Shown here: positions 46,107-58,173 of the stretch, one piece after another
Numbering within the stretch: position 1 is the stretch's first letter
How the letters are laid out: every line of letters begins with the position of its first letter
Source of the DNA: Clostridiales bacterium
Lineage (GTDB): Bacteria; Bacillota; Clostridia; Christensenellales; Aristaeellaceae
Direction of reading: 5' to 3'
Assembly (NCBI GenBank): GCA_012517815.1
Contig: JAAYUF010000013.1
Location: 1-64,000, forward strand
Length of the DNA: 64,000 bases
Notes under the pieces: generated by a model
What the model was told of the DNA's origin: nothing
Database searches by the model: none
What the model saw: only the letters and a program-made list of their open reading frames with translations
Position numbers and translations under genes: made by a program

Positions 46107-47246
46107 TTACGAAAGCCTGCCGCGGAAATCCTCGTAACCGAAGGCGCGCACCGTTTGCAGGGTTCCGTCCGCCTTTCGCAGCACGATGGCGGGCAGGGGC
46201 ATGCCGTTGAAGGTGTTGTTCTTCACCATGGTATAGAGGGCCATATCCTCAAACACGAGCAGGTCGCCCGGTTGCAGAGGCTGGTCGAACGAATAGTCGC
46301 CGATGATGTCCCCGGCCAGGCAGGTGGGGCCCGCCAGCCGGTACGGATACGGCTTTACGCCGGGCAGCGCGCCGCCGCGCAGGGGCGGGCGGTAGGGCAT
46401 CTCCAGCACATCGGGCATGTGGCACGCGGCGGAGGCGTCCAGAATGGCGATGGACATGCCGTTTTCAACGAGGTCGACCACGCGCGTTGCCAGATAGCCG
46501 GCGTTGAGCGCCACGGCTTCGCCCGGCTCCAGATAGACTTCCACGCCGTAACGCTTGCGGAACTCTCGGATGCGCGCCACCAGCGCATCGGTATTGTACC
46601 CCGGCTTGGTGATGTGGTGGCCGCCGCCGAAGTTAACCCACTTCATGCGGGGGATGAATTCGCCGAAAGAAGCCTCCACCGCGTCCAGCGTCCGAAGGAG
46701 CGCGTCGCTGCCCTGCTCGCACAGGGTGTGGAAATGCAGGCCGTCCAGGCCGTCCAGCAGCCCGGGGCGGAACTGCGCGCGCGGGACGCCCAGCCGGGAA
46801 AACGGCGCGCAGGGATCGTACAGCACGTGCTCCTGCGTGGAGCACTCGGGGTTGATCCGCAGGCCGAAGCTCCTGCCGGAGGCCAGCGCGCGCTCGCGGA
46901 AATGCTCCCACTGCGAAAAGGAGTTGAACACGATGTGATCGCACAGGCGCAGCACCTCGTCAAACTCCGCGTCGCGGAAGGCGGGGGAGAAGATGTGCGT
47001 TTCCCCGCCCATCTCCTCGCGCCCAAGCCGGGCCTCATAAAGCCCGCTGGCCGCCGTGCCCGCGAGGTAGCGGCCGATGAGCGGATACACCGCGAACATC
47101 GAAAACGCCTTCTGTGCGAGCAGTATCTTGCAGCCCGCCGCGTCCGCGACGGCTTTCAGAGTGGCCAGGTTATCGGTCAGCCGCGCCTCGTCCACCACGT
47201 AGCAGGGGGTGGGGAGCGCGCGCAGGGATTCTGCCAGCGCGTCCAT
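46107..47246 (-). CDS. nspC: Carboxynorspermidine/carboxyspermidine decarboxylase
   Basis: The 379-residue protein is a fold III PLP decarboxylase: LLAQKAFS with PLP Lys46, HFHTLCE, VNFGGGHHITKPGYN, YLEPGEAVALNAGYL and GPTCLAGDIIGDYSF with the active-site cysteine. NspC removes CO2 from carboxyspermidine or carboxynorspermidine, the last step of the alternative spermidine pathway. The ATG at 47246 overlaps the CASDH stop by one base (TGATG). It is the last gene of the polyamine operon. Confidence 0.95.
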   Translation of the reverse strand: MDALAESLRALPTPCYVVDEARLTDNLATLKAVADAAGCKILLAQKAFSMFAVYPLIGRYLAGTAASGLYEARLGREEMGGETHIFSPAFRDAEFDEVLRLCDHIVFNSFSQWEHFRERALASGRSFGLRINPECSTQEHVLYDPCAPFSRLGVPRAQFRPGLLDGLDGLHFHTLCEQGSDALLRTLDAVEASFGEFIPRMKWVNFGGGHHITKPGYNTDALVARIREFRKRYGVEVYLEPGEAVALNAGYLATRVVDLVENGMSIAILDASAACHMPDVLEMPYRPPLRGGALPGVKPYPYRLAGPTCLAGDIIGDYSFDQPLQPGDLLVFEDMALYTMVKNNTFNGMPLPAIVLRKADGTLQTVRAFGYEDFRGRLS

Positions 47247-48445
47247 CAGTCCACCAGCACGGGGTTGAAGTCCTCCACCCATGGCAGCCCCCAGCGGTTG
47301 AGCGCGTCCATGAACGGGTCGGGGTCGAACTGCTCCATGTTCCACACGCCGGGTTTGTTCCACGTGCCGTTCATCACCAGCATCGCGCCGATCATCGCGG
47401 GCACGCCGGTGGTGTAGGAGATGGCCTGGCTGCCCACTTCGCGGTAGCATTCCTGATGGTCGCACACGTTATAAAGATAGTAAGTCTTGGGCTTGCCGTC
47501 CTTGACGCCCTGGAAGATGCAGCCGATGTTGGTTTTGCCCACCGTGCGGGGGCCAAGCGACGCCGGGTCTGGCAGCACGGCTTTCAGAAACTGCAGCGGG
47601 ACGATCTTCCGCCCCTGAAAATCGATGGGCTCGATGGAGGTCATGCCCACATCCTGCAGGCACTTGAGGTGCGTGAGGTAGCTCTGCCCGAAGGTCATGA
47701 AGAACCGAATGCGCCGGATGCCTTTCAGGTTCTGGGCGAGGCTTTCCAGCTCCTCGTGGTGCAGAAGGTACATATCCTTCTTGCCGATCTGTCGGAAATC
47801 ATACTCCCGCTTGATTTCCATGGGCTCGGTTTCCACCCAGCGGCCGTCCTCCCAGTAGCTGCCCTTGGCCGTCACCTCGCGGATGTTGATTTCCGGGTTA
47901 AAGTTGGTGGCGAAGGGGTAGCCGTGGTCGCCGCCGTTGGCGTCCAGAATGTCCAGATAGTGGATTTCGTCGAACTGGTGCTTTTGCGCGTATGCCGCGA
48001 AAACGCCGGTGACGCCGGGGTCAAACCCGCTGCCCAGCAGCGCGCAGAGGCCCGCCTCCTTAAAGCGCTCCCGGTAGGCCCACTGCCAGCCGTACTCGAA
48101 CCTGGCCGTTTCCGGGGGCTCGTAGTTGGCGGTGTCCACATAGTGGGTTTTGGTCGCCAGGCACGCTTCCATGATGGTCAGATCCTGATAGGGCAGGGCG
48201 AGGTTCAACACCACGTCGGGCTGAAAATCCCGGATGAGGGCGACCAGTTCGTCCACGCTGTCGGCGTTGACCTGCGCGGTGTGAATTTTGGTCTTGCCGC
48301 CGGAGAGTTTTTCTTTCAACGCGTCGCACTTGCTTTTGGTGCGGCTGGCAATCAGGATTTCCTCAAAAACCTCGCTGTTCTGGCAGCATTTATGGATGGC
48401 GACGGAAGCTACGCCGCCGCAGCCGACAATCATGCATTTTCCCAT
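47246..48445 (-). CDS. Carboxy(nor)spermidine synthase (saccharopine dehydrogenase family)
   Basis: The 399-residue protein starts with the Rossmann motif MIVGCGGVASVAIHK and has saccharopine-dehydrogenase-family blocks VVLNLALPYQDL, YVDTANYE, GFDPGVTGVFAAYA and GGDHGYPFATNF. Next to nspC this is CASDH, which condenses putrescine (or diaminopropane) with aspartate semialdehyde using NADPH. AAAGGAG precedes the ATG. It lies 5 bp after speB. Confidence 0.95.
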   Translation of the reverse strand: MGKCMIVGCGGVASVAIHKCCQNSEVFEEILIASRTKSKCDALKEKLSGGKTKIHTAQVNADSVDELVALIRDFQPDVVLNLALPYQDLTIMEACLATKTHYVDTANYEPPETARFEYGWQWAYRERFKEAGLCALLGSGFDPGVTGVFAAYAQKHQFDEIHYLDILDANGGDHGYPFATNFNPEINIREVTAKGSYWEDGRWVETEPMEIKREYDFRQIGKKDMYLLHHEELESLAQNLKGIRRIRFFMTFGQSYLTHLKCLQDVGMTSIEPIDFQGRKIVPLQFLKAVLPDPASLGPRTVGKTNIGCIFQGVKDGKPKTYYLYNVCDHQECYREVGSQAISYTTGVPAMIGAMLVMNGTWNKPGVWNMEQFDPDPFMDALNRWGLPWVEDFNPVLVD

Positions 48446-48450
48446 AGGGG

Positions 48451-49302
48451 TTACGCTCCTTTCATTTGCAAGAGGATTTCACGGGTGAGTTTGCAGGCGG
48501 CCGCTGTGGAGATGCCGCTGGGGTCGTAGTGCGGGGCGAGTTCCACGATGTCCGCGCCGATCAGGTTAAGCCTGTGCAGGGAAAGCAGCGCGTTCAGCAG
48601 TTCCGTAAAGGGGATCCCGCCGCCTTCCGGCGTGCCGGTGCCCGGCAGGCAGGAGGGGTCCAGCACATCCAGGTCGAGCGTCAGGTAGACGGGCGCGCCT
48701 TCCAGCGCGCCGAGGGTTTCGGCCCAGCCGTCCAGCGTGAAACGGTGCATGCGGGTGTGCCGGTCGGCAAAGACGAACTCCTCCCGTTCCCCGCTACGGA
48801 TGCCAAACTGGTGAATGCGCCCGTCGCCCAGCAGTTCCCACGCCCTGCGCAGGACGCAGGCGTGGGAGAGCGTTTCGCCCAGATAATCGGCGCGCAGATC
48901 GGCATGCGCGTCCAGGTGCAGGATGTGCAGCGCGGGGTAGCGCGGGAGCGCCGCCCTGAGCGCGCCCAGCGTTACCAGATGCTCGCCCCCCAGCATCAGC
49001 GGTCGCTTGCCTGCGGCCCAGATTTCTTCCGCCCGTTCCCGGATCATGTCGACCGCGCGCCCGGGATTGCCGAAGGGCAGCTCCAGATCGCCCGCGTCGC
49101 ACACGCGCAGCTCAGTCAGGTCGCGGTCGCAGTAGGGCGAATAGGTTTCAATGCCGAAGGATTCGCCGCGGATGGCCGCGGGGCCGAAGCGCGCGCCGGG
49201 CCGGAAGGAGGTGGTGCCGTCAAACGGCGCGCCGAACAGCACGATGTCCGCCTGCCCGAAGGGGGAATCGCACCCCAGGAACGTGTGCACGTTGCTATTC
49301 AT
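48451..49302 (-). CDS. speB: Agmatinase-family ureohydrolase
   Basis: The 283-residue protein has the two-manganese ureohydrolase motifs GGEHLVT, LDAHADLR and LTLDLDVLDPSCLPGTGTPE. Agmatinase releases urea from agmatine to give putrescine; in pathways with carboxyaminopropyl-agmatine-type intermediates a related ureohydrolase is used. It overlaps speE by 8 bp. With the upstream decarboxylase it suggests an arginine-agmatine-putrescine route. Confidence 0.93.
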   Translation of the reverse strand: MNSNVHTFLGCDSPFGQADIVLFGAPFDGTTSFRPGARFGPAAIRGESFGIETYSPYCDRDLTELRVCDAGDLELPFGNPGRAVDMIRERAEEIWAAGKRPLMLGGEHLVTLGALRAALPRYPALHILHLDAHADLRADYLGETLSHACVLRRAWELLGDGRIHQFGIRSGEREEFVFADRHTRMHRFTLDGWAETLGALEGAPVYLTLDLDVLDPSCLPGTGTPEGGGIPFTELLNALLSLHRLNLIGADIVELAPHYDPSGISTAAACKLTREILLQMKGA

Positions 49303-50149
49303 CCCGGCGAAGCGCCTCCTCCACGTAGTTGGGCAGGCAGAACGAGCCCCGGTGCAAATTGGTGTTGTAGTAGCGGGTGGGGATGCGCAGGGCCTTCCAG
49401 TCCGCGGCTTGCAGATCGCGCAGGGGGTGAAGCCCGCGGGAGGCGAACCCGAACAGCCAGTGCCCGGAGGGGTAGGTCGGGATGTGCGCCTGATAGACGC
49501 GGCTGACCGGGAACACGCTCAGGATGCGCTTGTGGGAGCTGCGCATGGCCGCCGCGTCCTCCTGATAAAAGGGGCTTTCGTGCTGGTTTACGAGGATGCC
49601 GTTCTCCGCCAGCGCGCCGTAGCAGCCGCCGTAAAACTCCTTGGTAAACAGCACCTCGCCCGGGCCGGAAGGGTCGGTGGAATCCACGATGATCAGATCG
49701 TAGGTTTCCTTCGGATGCCGGATGAACTTGAGCCCGTCGGCGAAGTGCAGGTTCACGCGCGGGTCGTCAAACCCGCAGGCGGTTTGGGGCAGGTACTCGC
49801 GGCAAACCTCCACCACGCGGCGGTCGATTTCCACCACGTCCACCGACTCGATGCCCGGATATTTCGCCAGTTCCCGCGCCACGCCGCCGTCGCCCGCGCC
49901 GATCACCAGCACCCGGCGGATGCCGGGGTTTACGGCCATTGGCACGTGGGTGATCATCTCGTGGTAGACGAACTCGTCCCGCTCGGTGAGCATCAGCACG
50001 CCGTCCAGCGTGAGGATGCGGCCGAACTCCGGCGACTCGTACACGGAAATGCGCTGATAGTCGCTTTCCTCCTGATGGAGCTGCGCGCTGACCCGGATGG
50101 AAAACCGCACGTCCGGGGTGTGATACTCGCTATACCAAAGATCATCCAT
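49295..50149 (-). CDS. speE: Polyamine aminopropyltransferase (spermidine synthase)
   Basis: The 284-residue protein has the spermidine-synthase signature VLVIGAGDGGVARELAKYP, the catalytic block YDLIIVDSTDPSGPGEVLFT and the N-terminal YQRISVYESPEFGRILTLDG. It transfers aminopropyl from decarboxylated SAM made by SpeD. The ATG at 50149 overlaps the decarboxylase end by 8 bp. Confidence 0.95.
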   Translation of the reverse strand: MDDLWYSEYHTPDVRFSIRVSAQLHQEESDYQRISVYESPEFGRILTLDGVLMLTERDEFVYHEMITHVPMAVNPGIRRVLVIGAGDGGVARELAKYPGIESVDVVEIDRRVVEVCREYLPQTACGFDDPRVNLHFADGLKFIRHPKETYDLIIVDSTDPSGPGEVLFTKEFYGGCYGALAENGILVNQHESPFYQEDAAAMRSSHKRILSVFPVSRVYQAHIPTYPSGHWLFGFASRGLHPLRDLQAADWKALRIPTRYYNTNLHRGSFCLPNYVEEALRRDE

Positions 50150-51599
50150 TGCCGAGAACCTCCGTAACGATGTTGAGCCGGGAGACATCCATGGCCTCGG
50201 GGCCGGTAAGCGTACAGCCCTTGTCCCGCGCGTAGCGGATGTAGGCCACGATTTCCGGGGTCACGCGCTCGCCGGGCGCCAGGATGGGGATGCCGGGCGG
50301 GTAGCTCATCACAAACTCGCCGCTGATCCCGCCTGCGCAAGCCTCCAGCGGGGTGCTGCGCTTGCCTGCGTAGAAGGCGGCCTGCGGGGAAAGCACCACC
50401 TCGGGGCCGATGTATTCGGTCTCCCACAGGCCCTTGCGCTCGCGTCTGTACAGCCGCCGGATGTCGGACAGCGCGCTGATCAGCCGCTCGATGTGCTTGG
50501 TCTTGTCGCCCACGGACACGTAGGCCAGAATGTTGCCCAGATCGCCGAACTCGACCTGAATATCGTACTTGTCGCGCAGCAGATCGTACACCTTGATGCC
50601 GGCCAGCCCCAAATCCATGGTGTTCACGGAGAGCTTGGTCTCGTCGAAGGCGAAGATGCTGTCGCCGTTGACCAGCTCCTTGGAAAAGGCGTAGTAATCG
50701 CCCAGCTCGTTGATCTCCTCTCGGGCGTAGCGGGCGAAGCGGGTTACCTTGTCAAAGATCGCCGCGCCGTCCAGCGCCAGGTTGCGCCGGGAGATATCCA
50801 GGCTTGCGAGCAGCAGGTAGCTGGCGCTGGTGGTCTGGGTCAGGTTGATCACCTGGCGCACATAGTCCGCGTTGACGCGCGGGCCGCACAGGAGCAGCGA
50901 ACTTTGCGTGAGCGAGCCGCCCGACTTGTGCAGGCTGACCGCCGCCATATCCGCGCCGGCCGCCATGGCGGAAACCGGCATGGCGCGCCCGAAATAGAAG
51001 TGCGTGCCGTGGGCTTCGTCCGCCAGCACGCGCAGGCCGCGGCTGTGCGCCAGCTCGGTGATGCGTCTTAAGTCGGAGCAGACCCCGTAGTAGGTGGGGT
51101 TGTTGACCAAGATGGCCTTCGCGTCCGGCGCGGCGGCGACGGCGCGCTCCACCGAGGCGAAGGACATGCCCAGCGCGATGCCCAGCTTGCGGTCGGTCTC
51201 CGGGTTCACGTACGCGGGAATCGCGCCGCACAGCACCATGGCGTTGATCACGCTCTGGTGCACGTTGCGCGGCAGGATGATCCTATCGCCGCTTTTAAGC
51301 GTGGAAAGCATCATCGCCTGCACGGCGGAGGTGGTGCCCCCCACCATAAAAAAAGCGTGCGCCGCGCCAAAGGCGTCTGCGGCCAGCGCTTCGGCGTCCT
51401 TAATCACGCTCACGGGATGGCACAGGTTATCCAGCGGCTTCATGGAGTTCACGTCCACGCTGAGGCAACGCTCGCCCAGAAATTCGCTGAGCGGTTTGTT
51501 GCCCCGGCCGCGCTTGTGGCCGGGCACGTCGAAAGGGACGATCCGCTCGTTTCGCATGGCCTCCAAAGCGTCGTACAGCGGCGCCCTAGACTGATCCAT
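50142..51599 (-). CDS. speA: Orn/Lys/Arg decarboxylase (probable arginine decarboxylase)
   Basis: The 485-residue fold I PLP enzyme has PGHKRGRG, FMVGGTTSAVQAM, DEAHGTHFYF (Asp194, His197) and the PLP lysine Lys225 in SLHKSGGSLTQSS, with a C-terminal YPPGIPILAPGE. This is the compact Gram-positive form lacking the wing domain. Substrate among arginine, lysine and ornithine cannot be read with certainty; an agmatinase gene in the operon favours arginine. Its ATG shares one base with the speD stop. Confidence 0.93.
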   Translation of the reverse strand: MDQSRAPLYDALEAMRNERIVPFDVPGHKRGRGNKPLSEFLGERCLSVDVNSMKPLDNLCHPVSVIKDAEALAADAFGAAHAFFMVGGTTSAVQAMMLSTLKSGDRIILPRNVHQSVINAMVLCGAIPAYVNPETDRKLGIALGMSFASVERAVAAAPDAKAILVNNPTYYGVCSDLRRITELAHSRGLRVLADEAHGTHFYFGRAMPVSAMAAGADMAAVSLHKSGGSLTQSSLLLCGPRVNADYVRQVINLTQTTSASYLLLASLDISRRNLALDGAAIFDKVTRFARYAREEINELGDYYAFSKELVNGDSIFAFDETKLSVNTMDLGLAGIKVYDLLRDKYDIQVEFGDLGNILAYVSVGDKTKHIERLISALSDIRRLYRRERKGLWETEYIGPEVVLSPQAAFYAGKRSTPLEACAGGISGEFVMSYPPGIPILAPGERVTPEIVAYIRYARDKGCTLTGPEAMDVSRLNIVTEVLGNG

Positions 51600-52405
51600 C
51601 AATGCGCGTCCTCCTGAAAAATATTCATGCCGCTGAAAATCTCCAGCATTTCCCGGCGCAGGGCGTTGGCGATGCTCAGGCGCACCTGCGGCTTGATCTC
51701 GTACACATCGGCGTTGAAGAGGTAGTTTTGCAGCTCGATATCCTTGATGAGCATCTTGGTGTGAAACAGGTTGGCCTGATAGACGTTGATATCGACCGCA
51801 TCGTACTTTTGCAGGGTTTTCCGGTCGATGTAATCCTGAATGGAAGTGATGCTGTGATCCATGAACAGCTTGCGGCCCCGCACGTCCCGGGTGAAGCCGC
51901 GCACGCGGTAATCCAGCGTGATGATGTCGGAATCAAAGCTCCCCAGCAGAAAATCCAGCGTGGATAGCGGAGTGATTTCCCCGCAGGTCGCCACGTCGAT
52001 ATCCACCCGGAAGGTGGCGATGGAGGTTTCCGGATGGTACTCCGGGTAGGTGTGAACGGTCACATGGCTTTTATCCAGATGGCCGACCACCGCCTCGCCC
52101 TCGCCCTTGCCGACCATCGTCGCCCCGGCGCGCTTGCCGATCATGGTTTCCTCGGCGATCAGGCAGGTGACGCTCGCCCCCTGCGGCTCGTAATCCTGCC
52201 GGGAGATGTTGAGCACCACCGCGCCGATCATCTCGGTCAGCTTTTCAAGGATCGCGGTCAGACGCGCGGAATTGTACTGCTCGTTGATGTACTGGATATA
52301 GTCCTGCTGTTCGCGCGCGGTTTTCGCGTAGCAGATGTCGTAAATATTGAAGCTCAGGGATTTGGTGAGATTGTTAAACCCGTACAGTTTCAGTTTCTCG
52401 CCCAT
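51599..52405 (-). CDS. speD: S-adenosylmethionine decarboxylase proenzyme
   Basis: The 268-residue protein has the self-cleavage block LDKSHVTVHTYPEYHPE, with Ser113 as the expected pyruvoyl precursor, and DVATCGEITPL with a catalytic cysteine. The length is that of the class with a long C-terminal part, as in E. coli SpeD. The ATG at 52405 follows GGAGG by 8 nt. It is the first gene of the polyamine operon and stands just after an intrinsic terminator, so its expression should be set by read-through. Confidence 0.94.
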   Translation of the reverse strand: MGEKLKLYGFNNLTKSLSFNIYDICYAKTAREQQDYIQYINEQYNSARLTAILEKLTEMIGAVVLNISRQDYEPQGASVTCLIAEETMIGKRAGATMVGKGEGEAVVGHLDKSHVTVHTYPEYHPETSIATFRVDIDVATCGEITPLSTLDFLLGSFDSDIITLDYRVRGFTRDVRGRKLFMDHSITSIQDYIDRKTLQKYDAVDINVYQANLFHTKMLIKDIELQNYLFNADVYEIKPQVRLSIANALRREMLEIFSGMNIFQEDAH

Positions 52406-52429
52406 GGGGTCGCCCTCCGCTGCCATACA

Positions 52430-52465
52430 AAAATAAAAAGATGCGCCCTGCGACCGGGGCACATC
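52430..52465 (-). terminator. Intrinsic terminator in the speD leader
   Basis: Stem 52440-52448 with 52457-52465 (9 bp with one G-U, 8-nt loop) is followed on the minus strand by TTTTTATTTTT and ends only about 25 nt before the speD start codon. Placed between promoter and first gene, it is suited to transcription attenuation. Confidence 0.88.
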
Positions 52466-52802
52466 CTGCAAAACATTCTGCGGTTTCGGCGGCATCTTCG
52501 CACGCGGTGCAAACGGCCATACGCCGCCCGTGCCGCCCCAACCCGTGGACCATCCAGAGTCTATACAGTAAGAACTTACTTTTACTACTCTTTTTGACCG
52601 TTTTACAAGCGTGTACCCAAGTACACTTGGTTATGAAGTAACCAACTGGCTATTCAGTAGCCAACTCATAAAAGTTGCGCTTGCGCGCAATCAAACGTGC
52701 GGATGGCATCCGCACTCGGCAGTTGACCCGGCTGTCCGTAAGGCCGTTGCTCCCCGGTGGGGAGTGGGTCAGTAAGTCCTTGCCGCCTGAGCGACTCGAA
52801 AC
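52466..52802 (-). ncRNA. Structured leader of the polyamine operon, candidate riboregulator
   Basis: From the promoter downstream, the minus strand can form in order: an outer TGACCC/GGGTCA helix (52724-52729 with 52766-52771) enclosing CTCCCC/GGGGAG (52750-52764) and CGGC/GCCG (52729-52732 with 52743-52746); an 8-bp hairpin GTGCGGAT/ATCCGCAC (52697-52715); TTGCGC/GCGCAA (52675-52690); then three back-to-back hairpins, 52647-52663 (TGGCTA), 52627-52645 (TTGGTTA) and 52611-52626 (GTGTAC). An A-rich single strand and the terminator follow. I do not recognise it as a known riboswitch class. The conserved-looking packing of stems argues for a functional RNA. Confidence 0.7.
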
Positions 52803-52808
52803 ACCAGT

Positions 52809-52837
52809 ATCATAATCTGATTTACCGCGGTTGTCAA
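52809..52837 (-). promoter_or_regulatory. Polyamine operon promoter
   Basis: On the minus strand TTGACA (plus 52832-52837) and TATGAT (plus 52809-52814) are 17 bp apart, about 400 bp before speD. TTGACAACC also overlaps a GGTTGACAACC palindrome. Confidence 0.8.
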
Positions 52838-53082: not shown

Positions 53083-54066
53083 CTAGCGGCTGCTCTTGTC
53101 GTACGGGATGCCTTCCGCCTTGGGCGCGCGGCTCTTCTTGCTGGTCAGGATCAGCACGATCATCGTGACGATGTAGGGAAGCATCAGGTAGATGTATTCC
53201 GCGCTCTTCACCGTATCAAACTGCGGCAGGAACGGGATCGACCCCGCGTAGGAGCCGATGATCTTGAACAGGGCGAAGAACAGGCTGGCGCCCAGGATGT
53301 TGAGGGGCTTCCAGTTGCCGAAGATCATCACGGCCAGGGCCAGGAAGCCGTAGCCGGCGACGGTGCTCTGAAAACCCGAACCGGCCGCGACCGTAAAGGC
53401 CAGCCCGCCGATGCCGCCCAGAAAACCCGAGATCGCCACGCCCAGGTAGCGCATGCGGTACACGTTGATGCCCACGCTGTCCGCCGCCTGCGGGTGCTCG
53501 CCGCAGGCCCGCAGCCGCAGGCCCGTCTTGGTCTTGTACAGGAAGACCGTAGCCGCGATCAGCAGCAGGAACGCGACCGGCGCGGTCAGGTACAGGCTTT
53601 TGAACAGCAGCCGGGACAGGAAATCCGTCCCCTGCGCCATGCCCAGGCTCTCCTGCGTCATGCGGATCCATTTGGGGATCAGGATAGTGGTCTGCGCCTG
53701 GCCCTGCGCGGCCCAGGTGACCACGACCGCTAGCGCGGGCGCCAGCATGTTCAGCGCCGTGCCGCCGATGGTTTGGTCCGCCTTGAGCTTGATGGAGGCG
53801 AACGCCAGCAGCATGCTGAACAGGATGCCCGACGCCCCCGCGATGAGGATGGCGATGAGCATGTGCAGCTGCGGCGCGTTCGCCCCGAAGCCCGCGTCGT
53901 CGGTGTAGCGCAGGTACAGGCAGCTGCACAGCGCGCCCACGATCATGATGCCTTCCAGCGCGATGTTGACAATGCCGCTGCGCTCGGAAAACATGCCGCC
54001 CAGCGCGACCAGCAGCAGGGGAACCGCAAACAGGACGGTGGCGCTCAAGATATCGGCAAAGATCAT
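53083..54066 (-). CDS. BmpA-type nucleoside ABC transporter, permease 2
   Basis: The 327-residue permease has eight or more membrane segments and the features GGMFSERSGIVNIALEGIM, the cytoplasmic CGEHPQAADSVGINVYRMRY and ALAVMIFGNWKPL. It corresponds to YufQ/NupQ of nucleoside importers. The ATG overlaps the previous stop (ATGA). It is the last gene of the operon. Confidence 0.94.
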   Translation of the reverse strand: MIFADILSATVLFAVPLLLVALGGMFSERSGIVNIALEGIMIVGALCSCLYLRYTDDAGFGANAPQLHMLIAILIAGASGILFSMLLAFASIKLKADQTIGGTALNMLAPALAVVVTWAAQGQAQTTILIPKWIRMTQESLGMAQGTDFLSRLLFKSLYLTAPVAFLLLIAATVFLYKTKTGLRLRACGEHPQAADSVGINVYRMRYLGVAISGFLGGIGGLAFTVAAGSGFQSTVAGYGFLALAVMIFGNWKPLNILGASLFFALFKIIGSYAGSIPFLPQFDTVKSAEYIYLMLPYIVTMIVLILTSKKSRAPKAEGIPYDKSSR

Positions 54067-55238
54067 GCTTGTTCCCCCTTCTTGACGGCGGCGTTCTCGT
54101 TGCCGGCCTCCAGCCGGGTTTCCAGCGCGATTTCCGCATTGGCGTTCTCCAGGGAATTGCGCAGGAACAGCTTGGCGATCCAGCCCTTCATCAGCAGGGC
54201 GAAAGCGCTCAGGTAGATGATCGCGGCGATGATGATGTCGATGTTTTCCTTGATGAAGTGCGGCTGCAAAGCGTCGCCGCCCACCTGAATGTAGGAAACG
54301 AACAGCGAGCTTAAAATGACGCCGATGGGGTTGGAGCTCGCCAGCAGCGCCACGGGGATGCCGTTGAAACCCATGCCCAGCAGCGCCTTGATGAGCGTGT
54401 ACTGGCCGGTGCCGCTGAGGTAGTATACCCCGCCGCCCAGGCCCGAAAGCGCGCCCGCGATCACCATCGAAAGGATGATGTTGCGCTTGGCGTTGATGCC
54501 GGCGTACTGGCTGGCGTGGCGGTTGTAGCCGCAGGCCTTAAGCTCGTAGCCGAACACCGTTTTTTGCAGCACCAGCCAGATGATCACCGCGGCGATCACC
54601 GCGATGAAAATGCCGATGTTGATGTAGTTGCTGTTCATCAGCGTATCCAGCCCGCCCTTGGGGAGCACCGCCGCGGGGTTGGCGTCCAGCAGGGGCGCGG
54701 TGCGATCCTTGATGGAGCTCTTGGCCCAGTAGTTGGTGAGCATCATGGGCATGTTGTTGATGGAGAGGTTCACCGCGTACATGGTGATCCAGTTGAACAT
54801 GATGGAGGTGATCACCTCGTTGACGTTGAACAGCGCCTTGCAGATGCCGGGGATGGCGCCCAGAATCGCGCCGCCCACCATGGCGAAGAGCAGCGCCACA
54901 TACCAGGGCAGCTGCAGCGCGATGGCCGCGGACAGGGCGCAGAACGCGCCCATGGTGTATTGGCCGGTCGCCCCGATGTTAAACAGGCCGGTCTTGAACG
55001 CAAACGCCACCGACAGGCCGCACAGCATCAGCGGAGAGGCCTGGTAGAGCACCTTGGCGAGCTTTTCGGACGTGGCCAGGCCCGTGGTCAGGATCTTGCC
55101 AAACCCGGTCAGGGCGTGGCTTGCGTTGAGCACGTACAGAAGCGCCAGGCCGACCAGCAGCCCGATCGCGACGGACAGCAGGGAGGCCATCAGGCTGGTG
55201 ATGCCCTGCGAGAAGCGGGGGTGCGGTTTCTTCATCAT
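54063..55238 (-). CDS. BmpA-type nucleoside ABC transporter, permease 1
   Basis: The 391-residue permease shows FNIGATGQYTMGAFCAL, VNEVITSIMFNWITMY, KACGYNRHASQYAGINAKRN and GMGFNGIPVALLA, as in YufP/NupP. The charged C-terminal tail is longer than usual. The ATG at 55238 lies 7 nt from GAGG and overlaps the ATPase stop. Confidence 0.94.
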   Translation of the reverse strand: MMKKPHPRFSQGITSLMASLLSVAIGLLVGLALLYVLNASHALTGFGKILTTGLATSEKLAKVLYQASPLMLCGLSVAFAFKTGLFNIGATGQYTMGAFCALSAAIALQLPWYVALLFAMVGGAILGAIPGICKALFNVNEVITSIMFNWITMYAVNLSINNMPMMLTNYWAKSSIKDRTAPLLDANPAAVLPKGGLDTLMNSNYINIGIFIAVIAAVIIWLVLQKTVFGYELKACGYNRHASQYAGINAKRNIILSMVIAGALSGLGGGVYYLSGTGQYTLIKALLGMGFNGIPVALLASSNPIGVILSSLFVSYIQVGGDALQPHFIKENIDIIIAAIIYLSAFALLMKGWIAKLFLRNSLENANAEIALETRLEAGNENAAVKKGEQA

Positions 55239-56785
55239 GCTTCCACCTCGCATTCCGAGTTCATCGTTTGTTTGCTGGCGCCGGACATGTACAGGCCCAG
55301 TTCCTGCGCGGTCGCGTACTTCGCGTCCACGTTGGCGACCAGTTCCCCGTCGTGGATCACCAGAATGTGATCGCTCAGGCTCATGACTTCGTCCAGCTCC
55401 AGGGAGACCAGCAGCACCGCGCATCCGGCCTCCCGGGCGGCCAGGATCTGCCGGTGGATGTATTCGATGGCCCCGACGTCCAGCCCGCGCGTGGGCTGCA
55501 CGGCGATCAGCAGGCTGGGCTTGAGGTCCAGTTCGCGGGCGACGATGGCCTTTTGCTGGTTGCCGCCGCTCATGCTCTTGGTTGGGGTCAGGCCGCCCTG
55601 CCCGCAGCGGATGTCGAACCGGTCGATCAGCTGATCGGCATGGCGGTAGATTTCGTCAAAGCGCAGGAAACCCGCCCGCTGGTAGTCCGGGTCGAAGTAG
55701 CTTTTCAGCACCAGGTTTTCCGCGAGGGAATAATCCAGCACCAGCCCGTGCTTGTGCCGATCCTCCGGAATGTGCGAAAGGCCCATGTTGTTGCGCTCGC
55801 GCACCGTCGCGGTGGTAATCTCGCGCTCGCCGATGAAGATGTGCCCCCGCGTAGCGGCTTCCAGCCCGGTGAGCGCATGCACCAGCTCGGTCTGGCCGTT
55901 GCCGTCGATGCCGGCGATGCCCACGATCTCCCCGCGGCGTACGCTGAAGCTCACGTCGTTGACTTTGTTCTTGCCGCTGTTTTTACCGGCCACAAACAGG
56001 TTTTGCACCCGCAGCACCGCTTCGCCGGCGTGCAGGGCGCTTTTTTCAATGGAGAAGTTCACCTTGCGCCCCACCATCATCTCCGCCAGCTCGTCTACGG
56101 TGGTATCGGCCACGTCCACCGTGCCGATGCCCTTGCCCTTGCGCAGCACCGTGACCCGGTCCGCCACCGCCATGATCTCGTTGAGCTTATGGGTAATAAA
56201 CAGGATGCTCTTGCCTTCGCGGGCGAAGTTGCGCATGCTCTGCATCAGCTCGTCGATCTCCTGCGGGGTCAGCACCGCGGTCGGCTCGTCGAAGATCAGG
56301 ATTTCGTTATCGCGGAACAGCATCTTGAGGATTTCCACGCGCTGCTGCATGCCCACGCCGATGTCCTCAATCAGCGCGTCCGGGTCCACCTGCAGGCCGT
56401 AGCGGTCGCAAAGCTCCAGGACCTTTTTGCGCGCGTCCCGCTTTTGCAGGATGCCCCGGCAGGTCTGTTCCGCGCCCAGAATGATGTTATCCAGCACCGT
56501 GAACACTTCCACCAGCTTGAAGTGCTGGTGCACCATGCCGATGTGCAGGCGGTTGGCGTCGTTGGGGTTGCTGATCCTGACGACCTTGCCGTCCTTCTTG
56601 ATGGTGCCGCTCTCGGGCTGGTAGAGGCCGAAAAGGACGCTCATCAGCGTGCTTTTGCCCGCGCCGTTCTCCCCAAGCAGCGCGTGGATTTCCCCTTTTC
56701 GCAACTGCAGGGTGATATCGTCGTTGGCGACGATGCCCGGAAACTTTTTGGTGATGTTGAGCATCTCAATGACGTAATCGTTCAT
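55235..56785 (-). CDS. BmpA-type nucleoside ABC transporter, tandem ATPase
   Basis: The 516-residue protein has a first domain with GENGAGKST, IGMVHQHFKLVEVFTV, VGMQQRVEILKML and ILIFDEPTAVLTP, and a second with degenerate Walker A GIDGNGQTE, SGGNQQK and AVQPTRGLDVGA. The VHQHF and QPTRGLD blocks identify the BmpA-associated (NupO/YufO) subgroup. The ATG at 56785 lies 7-8 nt after GAGGAA. It follows the binding-protein gene after a 270-bp gap containing two hairpins. Confidence 0.95.
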   Translation of the reverse strand: MNDYVIEMLNITKKFPGIVANDDITLQLRKGEIHALLGENGAGKSTLMSVLFGLYQPESGTIKKDGKVVRISNPNDANRLHIGMVHQHFKLVEVFTVLDNIILGAEQTCRGILQKRDARKKVLELCDRYGLQVDPDALIEDIGVGMQQRVEILKMLFRDNEILIFDEPTAVLTPQEIDELMQSMRNFAREGKSILFITHKLNEIMAVADRVTVLRKGKGIGTVDVADTTVDELAEMMVGRKVNFSIEKSALHAGEAVLRVQNLFVAGKNSGKNKVNDVSFSVRRGEIVGIAGIDGNGQTELVHALTGLEAATRGHIFIGEREITTATVRERNNMGLSHIPEDRHKHGLVLDYSLAENLVLKSYFDPDYQRAGFLRFDEIYRHADQLIDRFDIRCGQGGLTPTKSMSGGNQQKAIVARELDLKPSLLIAVQPTRGLDVGAIEYIHRQILAAREAGCAVLLVSLELDEVMSLSDHILVIHDGELVANVDAKYATAQELGLYMSGASKQTMNSECEVEA

Positions 56786-56888
56786 GCGCTGATTCCTCAT
56801 CCTTTCGTATCCGATACTGGACTGACATCTATGCGCTGGCGGCCTGCCGCCTGCCAGCGCCCACATCTCAGCCCGGTATGAAAAGTAA

Positions 56889-56914
56889 AAAGGCTAAGCA
56901 TCCACCTAGCCTTT
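56889..56914. promoter_or_regulatory. Small hairpin before the ATPase gene
   Basis: AAAGGCTA and TAGCCTTT (56889-56896, 56907-56914) form an 8-bp stem about 100 bp before the ATPase start. Its role is unknown; it could influence the level of read-through from the binding-protein gene. Confidence 0.35.
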
Positions 56915-57014
56915 CGAAGCTCATGAAGAGCATGACGGGCCGCGCGACGTCTGACGAATCCTTCCGATCCGGCGGCGCGCGCCGTACCGCCATCCGCCCA
57001 CGCTTCATGAACGG

Positions 57015-57050
57015 GCGAGCCGGGTCGGGCGTAAGCCCGGCCCGGCTCGC
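57015..57050 (-). terminator. Strong hairpin after the BMP-family binding-protein gene
   Basis: A 16-bp stem with one G-T pair (57015-57030 with 57035-57050, GTAA loop) begins 9 bp after the stop codon. There is no T-run on the minus strand, so it probably stabilises the upstream message and limits read-through rather than ending transcription. Confidence 0.65.
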
Positions 57051-57058
57051 TGAAAAGG

Positions 57059-58117
57059 TTAGTTCTGGTAGTCCACCGTTACGTTGGTGGTGACGGGCTG
57101 CGCAACGATATCGTTGCTGATGGCGATGGTGCCGTCGCTGATGGCGTTAAACACCTTGGTGTACTCATCCACCGTGAAGGTCTTAAAGCGCCAGGAAGCG
57201 GCTTCGGTGGGCAGGCCCACGGCGCCTTCCTTGATGCCCTGCAGCACGTTGACGCCCGCGATCTCGGCCGGCCACGCGTTGTTGTTGGCCACATACATGT
57301 CCAGCAGGTTCTTGGTGGCGACGGTCAGCTTCTTGTAAGCGGAGGTGATGATGCGCTCGGAGATGTAGCCCTGATCCAGGTCCACGCCGATGATCTTGCC
57401 GTCGCCCTCTTCGGCGGCGGAGATGCAGCTGTACAGGATGCCGCCGCCGCAGGCGAACACGATCTGCGTGCCGTCGGCGTACCAGCTGTCCATCTTGGCC
57501 TTGATCTCATCGGTGGGCCAGAAGGCGCCGGAGTACCAGTACTTCATGTCCACGGTAACGCCCAGTTCCTTGGCGGCCGCGTCGGCGCCCTGCACATAGC
57601 CAAAGCCGTAGCGGATGACGGCCGGCACGTCGATGCCGCCCAGGAAGCCCAGCTTGGTGTAGCCGTCTTTCACCGCGGCGTAGCCGGCCAGATAGCCGCT
57701 GACTTCCTCGGTGAACTTGATGTTGGTCACGTTGGGGGTGTAGGATTCGGGGCTCAGGTCCACGCCCAGGAAGGCCACGTCCGGGAACTCGGCGGAGGCG
57801 GTGACCACGGCGTTATCCCACAGATAGCCGGGCAGCACGATCACTTTCGCGCCGGCTTCGATGGCGGCTTTGATGGACTCAATGCGCGCGTCGTCGCTGT
57901 CCTCGGAGGGGCGGTAATACGCGTAGTCGACTTTCTCGACCAGGCCCTGTTCTTCCGCGAAGGCCTTGACGCCCTCCCACGTGCCCTGGTTGAAGCTCTG
58001 GTCGTCAATATTGCCGACGTCCGTCACCAGCGCGTAGGTAATGCCTTCCGCCATCGCGGAAACGCCCAGGGCCAGTACGAGTGCCACAGCTAAAAGGATG
58101 GTAACAACCTTTTTCAT
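57059..58117 (-). CDS. BMP-family nucleoside-binding protein
   Basis: The 352-residue protein has a signal peptide (MKKVVTILLAVALVLALG, cleavage after AMA near residue 23) and the BMP fold: ALVTDVGNIDDQSFNQGTWEGV, VIVLPGYLWDNAV, LGFLGGIDVPAVIRYGFGYVQG and IIGVDLDQG. Unlike most Gram-positive BMP proteins it lacks a lipobox cysteine. AAGGAGGAG precedes the ATG at 58117. It delivers nucleosides to the transporter encoded downstream. Confidence 0.94.
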   Translation of the reverse strand: MKKVVTILLAVALVLALGVSAMAEGITYALVTDVGNIDDQSFNQGTWEGVKAFAEEQGLVEKVDYAYYRPSEDSDDARIESIKAAIEAGAKVIVLPGYLWDNAVVTASAEFPDVAFLGVDLSPESYTPNVTNIKFTEEVSGYLAGYAAVKDGYTKLGFLGGIDVPAVIRYGFGYVQGADAAAKELGVTVDMKYWYSGAFWPTDEIKAKMDSWYADGTQIVFACGGGILYSCISAAEEGDGKIIGVDLDQGYISERIITSAYKKLTVATKNLLDMYVANNNAWPAEIAGVNVLQGIKEGAVGLPTEAASWRFKTFTVDEYTKVFNAISDGTIAISNDIVAQPVTTNVTVDYQN

Positions 58118-58173
58118 GCTTGGTCTCCTCCTTGCAATTTTCGGTGCATCGCTGCACAACGAACTTCGCCTTG

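Follow-up and report, generated by a model that had tools for sequence, protein, structure and literature searches.

We analysed a 64,000-nucleotide (nt) stretch of DNA from a Clostridiales bacterium (contig JAAYUF010000013.1, positions 1 to 64,000), called the window throughout, and focused on the leader RNA that precedes its polyamine operon on the minus strand. From position 52405 the genes follow in the order speD-speA-speE-speB-carboxynorspermidine synthase-nspC (Table 1). The speA-like decarboxylase scored over the Pfam OKR_DC_1 cut-off and over no NCBIfam cut-off, and the carboxynorspermidine synthase reached 409.8, below the NCBIfam cut-off of 800. An earlier note on this DNA had proposed that a structured leader of about 400 nt, with a promoter, three adjacent hairpins and a terminator, controls the operon as a riboswitch or protein-controlled attenuator responding to S-adenosylmethionine (SAM) or a polyamine. 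Promoter, hairpins and terminator were all found, as listed in Table 1. The -10 box lies about 404 nt from the speD start, and transcription would begin near 52802, judging from the promoter spacing. Since the 7 kb scanned held two promoter-like sites against 1.5 expected in shuffles, the position and context of this promoter outweigh its consensus match. The stretch 52797-52557 (241 nt) folded at -91.9 kcal/mol, compared with -69.5 ± 4.6 kcal/mol for 200 dinucleotide shuffles (z -4.9), none of which was as stable. The lower GC content also claimed for the leader held only in part: the GC fraction of 200-nt windows is 0.495-0.565 within 52400-52799 and 0.595-0.71 upstream of 52800, yet values of 0.51-0.53 also occur inside speD, which makes this argument weak.

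The 5' part of the leader proved to belong to a catalogued RNA family. A cmscan search matched 56 nt of the minus strand to RF02440 (SpF59_sRNA, ldcC RNA) over the full model, positions 1-54, well above the gathering score of 37.2. The earlier note had taken a match to a known family as a point against a new regulatory element; such a match exists, but RF02440 is a 54-position piece that Rfam files as 'Gene; sRNA' (small RNA), so it is no argument against a switch. In the leader no other Rfam family was found at its gathering score, nor at E up to 1, and 20 related loci contained none besides RF02440 over gathering score. This covers the SAM families in both sets, at the same thresholds, and agrees with the note's view that the element does not resemble S-box, SAM-II or another known SAM class. 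The T-box covariance model likewise matched neither the leader nor the 20 related loci, and the speF motif had no Rfam match in the leader.

We then found that conservation extends well beyond the catalogued piece. An exact pattern taken from the RF02440 core recovered at least 117 loci with record titles; among the matches listed were Paenibacillus, Fontibacillus, Neobacillus, Lederbergia, Kurthia, Blautia, Lachnotalea, Faecalibacterium, Gemmiger, Flavonifractor, Acidaminococcus, Phascolarctobacterium and many uncultured Clostridia, together with one metagenome-assembled contig each labelled as spirochaete and Synergistaceae, assignments that are insecure for such contigs. The resulting set of 157 loci (149 distinct in DNA) was selected on the first ~55 nt only, yet its members share about 150 nt more. 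Judging from these comparisons, the conserved RNA measures about 240 nt, and RF02440 covers no more than its 5' quarter. R1, a covariance model built for the entire element (196 positions, 57 pairs, 36 sequences), was run on 100 loci and matched all of them, 97 along the full model and three with the element cut off at a contig end; the sources of these loci include the 36 training sequences, a few loci repeat the same DNA under a second identifier, and one (L015) is interrupted near its 3' end. RF02440 itself was present in 22 of 200 relatives and in 18 of 398 genomes of the phylum, both counts including the window's own genome. In the same 398 genomes R1 found 25, including all 18; the seven extra genomes carry the element before speD or speA with the first domain lost or changed. 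In 398 genomes from the class of a Paenibacillus-like genome, R1 found 40. Its matches include a genus with genomes of 1.8-2.5 Mb and a streptococcal-looking speA, which we infer to be streptococcus-like. The RF02440 cut-off was reached by one of 13 scanned variant loci found with R1. A minimal version stands before speD in L179 and L180, where the first domain is gone and the 3' conserved block with a P0-like complement (by eye) is left; L256-L258, from three more genomes of that genus, lacked even this version in the searches made.

The element does not behave as a mobile sequence. It is present once in the host genome and once in each of nine further genomes, while one relative (G186) had two matches, both at contig ends; viral contigs gave no exact match to the core pattern, and no tandem repeats were found in the leader. 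These findings speak against a mobile element, and, with one copy in the host genome and polyamine genes after 138 of 142 distinct loci, so does the gene context that the note had named as a possible counter-indication (transposition next to unrelated genes). The element of L015 is broken after AGAGTAGTA, from about position 488, by an insert that resembles a miniature mobile element, with long inverted repeats whose 108-nt arms are 73% complementary. In L225, of the streptococcus-like genus, an open reading frame (ORF) with an IS200-like transposase domain (1206-1613; PF01797, first 90 residues scanned) follows the leader, where relatives have speA.

To describe the genes that follow, the first downstream gene was assigned by tblastn in the 142 distinct loci that could be tested, seven of the 149 having less than 450 nt downstream; all had been found through the first part of the RNA only. 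The first gene was SpeD in 50 loci, SpeA in 46, Lys9/CASDH (carboxynorspermidine synthase) in 26 and PotA in 16, with a C39-like protein in two and none in two. Polyamine genes thus come first in 138 of 142 distinct loci (144 of 148 with duplicates). PotB follows PotA in 13 of the 16 loci, and the other three contigs end before it; in one such locus (L043) PotA passed the spermidine/putrescine transporter cut-off, and PotB and PotD scored best to polyamine transporter models, below cut-off. In L105 a gene for a P-II nitrogen regulator (PF00543) lies between leader and potA, which hints at a tie of polyamine import to nitrogen control. A riboswitch would be expected to be a structured RNA that is conserved in front of genes related in metabolism, and the comparison of loci shows this of the window RNA. 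Its cis position before polyamine genes suggests a leader and not an independent small RNA. A trans-acting small RNA that stands before these genes by chance would fit the Rfam type, and a terminated leader would also show up as a short RNA; with 138 of 142 loci leading into polyamine genes on the same strand, we consider it very improbable, although a terminated leader may have a second role in trans.

The gene association also bears on the ligand. The common denominator of the targets, which comprise two synthesis routes and import, appears to be polyamines, and not SAM, arginine or agmatine. SAM, one of the two candidates of the earlier note, is an unlikely ligand because the same RNA precedes a spermidine/putrescine importer and the carboxynorspermidine synthase-decarboxylase pair; its other candidate, a polyamine, is favoured. 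The same anatomy could serve another ligand, such as putrescine, agmatine, decarboxylated SAM, methylthioadenosine, arginine or SAM itself, given that speD uses SAM, that speA uses arginine or a related amino acid, and that identity cannot be read from sequence. Putrescine is possible. As a whole this alternative seems unlikely, because the leaders of carboxynorspermidine synthase and potABC carry the same RNA and their targets share spermidine-like polyamines. The element is not part of every speD leader: speD passed its cut-off in 95 of the 398 phylum genomes, and R1 stands directly before it in 11 (coordinates compared by hand). Among 30 other speD loci R1 gave one weak match only (L231, 18.8 bits, E 0.0027), and in 20 further speD upstream regions neither R1 nor any of six motif fragments was present. 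The element is therefore one of several controls of speD.

In order to examine the stems, we used a 36-row MAFFT alignment (A1) that was not fitted to structure; an earlier alignment of 123 sequences was too gappy for use. In A1, 89.1% of cells were paired, compared with 34.9-45.7% when the partners were slid by one to three columns, and 119 cells were changed on both sides, compared with 42.9 ± 5.8 after shuffling (0 of 500 as high). Clear compensatory change was seen in P1 (outer pair), P2, the variable hairpin, P5 and P7. Stems of the leader are thus conserved in relatives, and several covary. The core helix P3, read by eye, is GGC/GCC, with AGC/GCU in L038 and L040, GAC/GUC in L021, and GCC/GGC in L208, L219 and the streptococcus-like group. 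P4, like P6, is nearly invariant: it reads UUAUUGA/UCAAUAA in most relatives, and the single double change among its seven pairs belongs to the row of the window. P8 aligns poorly in A1, where 52.6% of the cells of helix 10 pair. P7 is doubled in the window (52662-52629) and in L014, L019 and L084; most other A1 rows have one copy. Single-sequence folds agreed fully for the window and largely for L174, a distant variant, with P0 and P4-P8. Two further contacts were considered and dropped. One was a kissing interaction, judged by eye, of the P7 loop (UUACUU) with a local-hairpin loop (AAGUAA); it was not adopted because L016, L018, L022 and L067 retain the second loop although they have lost P7. 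An extra helix ACUGC/GUAGU in the window's minimum free energy (MFE) fold has all five pairs in 42 of the 70 loci parsed (three of 73 were skipped) and at least one mismatch in 28, and is not claimed.

The whole element is closed by a long-range helix, P0, which begins almost at the predicted transcription start and pairs the strand just upstream of P1 with the 3' end of the element. The earlier note was right about a structured leader of about 400 nt; the conserved element within it is larger than described, and its closing helix starts near 52797. In the window the P0 duplex has -25.3 kcal/mol, against a mean of -18.2 kcal/mol with foreign 3' strands, one of 72 being as good. Over 73 non-redundant loci the mean was -14.8 kcal/mol with own partners and -12.5 kcal/mol with foreign ones, and none of 2000 permutations had a mean as low as that observed. 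The sequences of P0 differ by clade and stay complementary: AAGGACUUACU/AGUAAGUUCUU in the window, GCAAAUAUUU/AAAUAUUUGC in many others, GAACUACUU/AAGUAGUUC in L028 and GGUAAAG/CUUUACC in L020. The adjoining, nearly invariant GAGUAGUAAAAG is complementary to the P0 3' strand as well, so that this strand has two competing structures open to it.

In 67 of the 73 loci a terminator was picked downstream of the element, at a median distance of 77 nt, and 57 of them scored above the 95th percentile of letter-shuffled spacers. When 12-nt probes along the element were scanned against the terminator 5' region in 54 loci, a single peak of complementarity (mean z -1.98) appeared at the 3' strands of P8 and P6, with mean z between about -0.25 and 0.35 away from it. 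With a 22-nt probe, the antiterminator averaged -12.8 kcal/mol, compared with -8.4 kcal/mol for letter-shuffled targets, and was individually significant (at most 5 of 100 shuffles as good) in 30 of the 54; in the window it reached -21.3 against -10.6 kcal/mol, with no shuffle of 100 as good. The strand needed by P6/P8 is thus the strand able to hold the terminator open. The unconstrained MFE fold of the window transcript (-150.3 kcal/mol) is the comparative OFF structure with P0, P1-P8 and the terminator, and forcing the antiterminator gave -144.3 kcal/mol, a cost of 6, with a local hairpin at GAGU...ACUC. In these computed structures P6/P8 and the antiterminator exclude each other, as would be expected of a riboswitch-type expression platform. 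A purely trans-acting RNA would have no need of a strand of its own complementary to the terminator side.

We propose that the leader is a cis-acting OFF switch, a riboswitch candidate for the sensing of a polyamine, among which spermidine is the likeliest, and assign this reading a probability of about 0.7. Polyamines are abundant RNA-binding molecules in cells. With a polyamine bound, the RNA would adopt a closed fold in which P0 joins the transcript start to 52580-52557 and encloses the P4-P8 domain together with the RF02440 core. The strand 52618-52601 would then be held in P6 and P8, so that the terminator at 52467-52438 could form and transcription would stop before speD. Without ligand, 52618-52601 would pair with 52473-52456, which contains the terminator 5' arm, and the operon would be transcribed; the P0 3' strand could form the local hairpin with GAGUAGUAAAAG instead. 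Stabilisation of P6/P8 would therefore mean termination, and the switch would be of the OFF type that control by an end product calls for. The computations support conservation, the covariation of several stems, the terminators and the position-specific complementarity, and they support the polyamine association and the attenuator anatomy well. From these we infer the coupling of P0 closure to P6/P8, direct binding by the RNA, spermidine as the ligand and the sign of control. The note's interpretation is thus partly supported: a riboswitch-like terminator attenuator of polyamine genes holds up, and corrections concern the size of the RNA and SAM as a ligand.

Table 1. Features of the polyamine operon and its leader in the window, with the evidence for each.
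Feature	Coordinates	Strand	Evidence
Promoter, sigma-70-type, TTGACA-17-TATGAT	52809..52837	-	11/12 consensus positions
P0 5' strand: GAGUC 52797-52793, GCGG 52786-52783, AAGGACUUACU 52781-52771	52771..52797	-	duplex energy, unconstrained MFE
RF02440 domain: P1 GACCC/GGGUC, hairpin P2, core P3 GGC/GCC with loop CUUACGGACA, then ACUGCCGA	52716..52771	-	cmscan, 52.8 bits
Variable hairpin, here GUGCGGAUGCCAUCCGCAC	52697..52715	-	helix 4; 6/6 pairs changed on both sides
P4 5' strand UUUGA, partner UCAAA 52597-52593	52691..52695	-	helix 5; 94% of cells paired
P5 hairpin UUGCGCGCAAGCGCAA	52675..52690	-	helix 6; 3/3 pairs changed on both sides
P6 5' strand UUUUAUGAG, partner CUUGUAAAA 52609-52601	52665..52673	-	helix 7; 96.8% of cells paired
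P7 hairpin GGCUACUGAAUAGCC	52648..52662	-	helix 8; window MFE
Second P7-like hairpin GGUUACUUCAUAACC	52629..52643	-	alignment and window MFE; also in L014, L019, L084
P8 hairpin GUGUACUUGGGUACAC; 3' strand also in predicted antiterminator	52611..52626	-	window MFE, antiterminator duplex
Predicted switching strand CUUGUAAAA: partner P6 5' strand (OFF) or UUUUGCAGG 52473-52465 (antiterminator, ON)	52601..52609	-	complementarity peak
Nearly invariant GAGUAGUAAAAGUA; 5' strand of local hairpin competing with P0	52577..52590	-	conservation; helices 11, 12; forced ON fold
P0 3' strand: AGUAAGUUCUU 52580-52570, CUGU 52568-52565, GACUC 52561-52557	52557..52580	-	duplex energy, MFE
Predicted antiterminator 3' strand UUUUGCAGGAUGUGCCCC, overlaps terminator 5' arm	52456..52473	-	forced fold, duplex energy
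Intrinsic terminator AGGAUGUGCCCCGGUCGCAGGGCGCAUCUU, then U-rich tail	52438..52467	-	11 pairs; in unconstrained MFE
speD, adenosylmethionine decarboxylase, first operon gene	51602..52405	-	NCBIfam TIGR03331, 408.1 bits, cut-off 255.8
Operon remainder: speA-like Orn/Lys/Arg decarboxylase, speE, speB, carboxynorspermidine synthase-like, nspC	46110..51602	-	family models

Several observations weigh against this reading. P6, on which the proposed switch would turn, is conserved more than it covaries, with one of nine pairs changed on both sides and four on one side only, and an unguided RNAalifold run on A1 gave 29 pairs without P4, P6 and P7; these three stems thus rest on conservation, pair counts and single-sequence folds. 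The fold of L219 contains P1, P4-P8 and the core but is closed by strands that do not belong to P0, that of L209 has P0 and P6-P8 without P4, and a closing P0 is absent from those of L179, L180 and L224. Taken one by one, no more than 12 of 73 loci did better than 95% of foreign P0 partners, and a criterion of both halves paired was passed by 619 of 721 foreign swaps compared with 66 of 73 own pairs, so the case for P0 rests on the energy difference, as conserved strands let foreign partners pair too. In six of the 73 loci no terminator was picked (the spacer of L063 is only 43 nt), and among the picks with low scores some are clearly false. Little room for a separate terminator is left in L089/L218, where speD probably starts about 50 nt past the element. 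The antiterminator was not individually significant in 24 of 54 loci, in some of which more than half of the shuffles did as well. Some variants without the RF02440 core keep the 3' part. Lastly, the leaders of L016 (element 1501-1696) and L018 (element 636-829, gene 946-1695) precede a secreted C39-like/papain-like protein, according to a family scan on the L018 protein, and that of L021 (1364-1561) precedes a secreted peptidase-like ORF, M28-like by eye; the L021 copy is diverged (46 bits), and its core helix is GAC/GUC, not GGC/GCC.

Two other kinds of attenuation were considered. In a protein-controlled attenuator, a polyamine-responsive RNA-binding protein would shift the balance between terminator and antiterminator. 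The same anatomy and gene association would result, and the nearly invariant stretches ACGGACAGCC and GAGUAGUAAAAGU could be protein sites; the element spans different genera with a large and elaborate fold, typical of aptamers, and we regard this explanation as rather improbable, somewhat more so than a different ligand. In leader-peptide attenuation, a short ORF would stall ribosomes on a polyamine or amino acid signal. The speF leaders act by leader-peptide attenuation, and polyamine operons elsewhere use arrest peptides, which speaks for it. In our loci, an ORF of at least six codons with a Shine-Dalgarno-like stretch was found by a simple filter in only seven of 54; five of the eight such ORFs start upstream of the conserved element, and, by eye, the conserved 3' part varies in length between L001, L003 and L006 by numbers of nucleotides not divisible by three. 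We disfavour this mechanism most strongly among those considered.

Upstream of the leader, on the same strand, genes of an ABC importer occupy 53083-58159, including one for a Bmp/PnrA-like binding protein (PF02608), and a terminator-like hairpin (52973-52955) lies after them.

The proposed switch can be set beside known leader RNAs. It belongs to RF02440 by the curated cut-off, and differs from that entry in its length of about 240 nt, in P0 and P4-P8, and in the linked terminator and antiterminator. With T-box and other multi-stem terminator leaders it shares a long leader with several hairpins followed by a terminator/antiterminator; its genes, however, are polyamine-related and not concerned with aminoacylation. 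The speF, odc1 and potE motifs are likewise leaders of polyamine genes; speF and odc1 are alpha-proteobacterial and potE is from Veillonella (PMC8632094; PMC11477304), and odc1 and potE are set apart from our RNA by their descriptions. The only validated spermidine riboswitch in the literature surveyed is a rare SAM-I variant with 13 examples in few genera that acts as a terminating OFF switch, and its authors state that further polyamine riboswitch classes must remain undiscovered (Salvail et al., 2023; PMC10853860). As described there, it too precedes genes of the ldcC/speB/speD/speE type in Gram-positive bacteria, its OFF sign would be shared by the window RNA, and its closing helix and antiterminator vie for a shared strand. 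In contrast, the window RNA is larger, has no match to the Rfam SAM models (a test that did not include alignment with the variant) and was found in 25 of 398 phylum genomes. Within the open-access literature, to which the search was confined, no description of RF02440 or ldcC RNA was found among the papers listed, as a switch or otherwise. The decarboxylase association is not new, since the Rfam name 'ldcC RNA' implies that someone made it; as far as that literature shows, the full extent, the spread, the importer association and the switching anatomy appear to be.

Collectively, our results point to a large attenuator-type RNA that is widespread and serves polyamine homeostasis, and that is likely to represent a new class of polyamine riboswitch. 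We give even odds to the stronger proposition that it is a major, so far unrecognised class of the Bacillota, in which an RNA of about 240 nt directly binds spermidine and controls both synthesis and import, the catalogued small RNA being its 5' domain. Given its size and its two conserved domains, such a class might perhaps bind more than one spermidine molecule, and how so large a fold would select a small, flexible polycation is a structural question. If true, the Rfam entry would grow from a 54-position small RNA to a full leader, and there would be a broad class in gut Clostridia, Paenibacillus and relatives, with a variant in a streptococcus-like genus, that would explain in general how polyamines are sensed by these bacteria.

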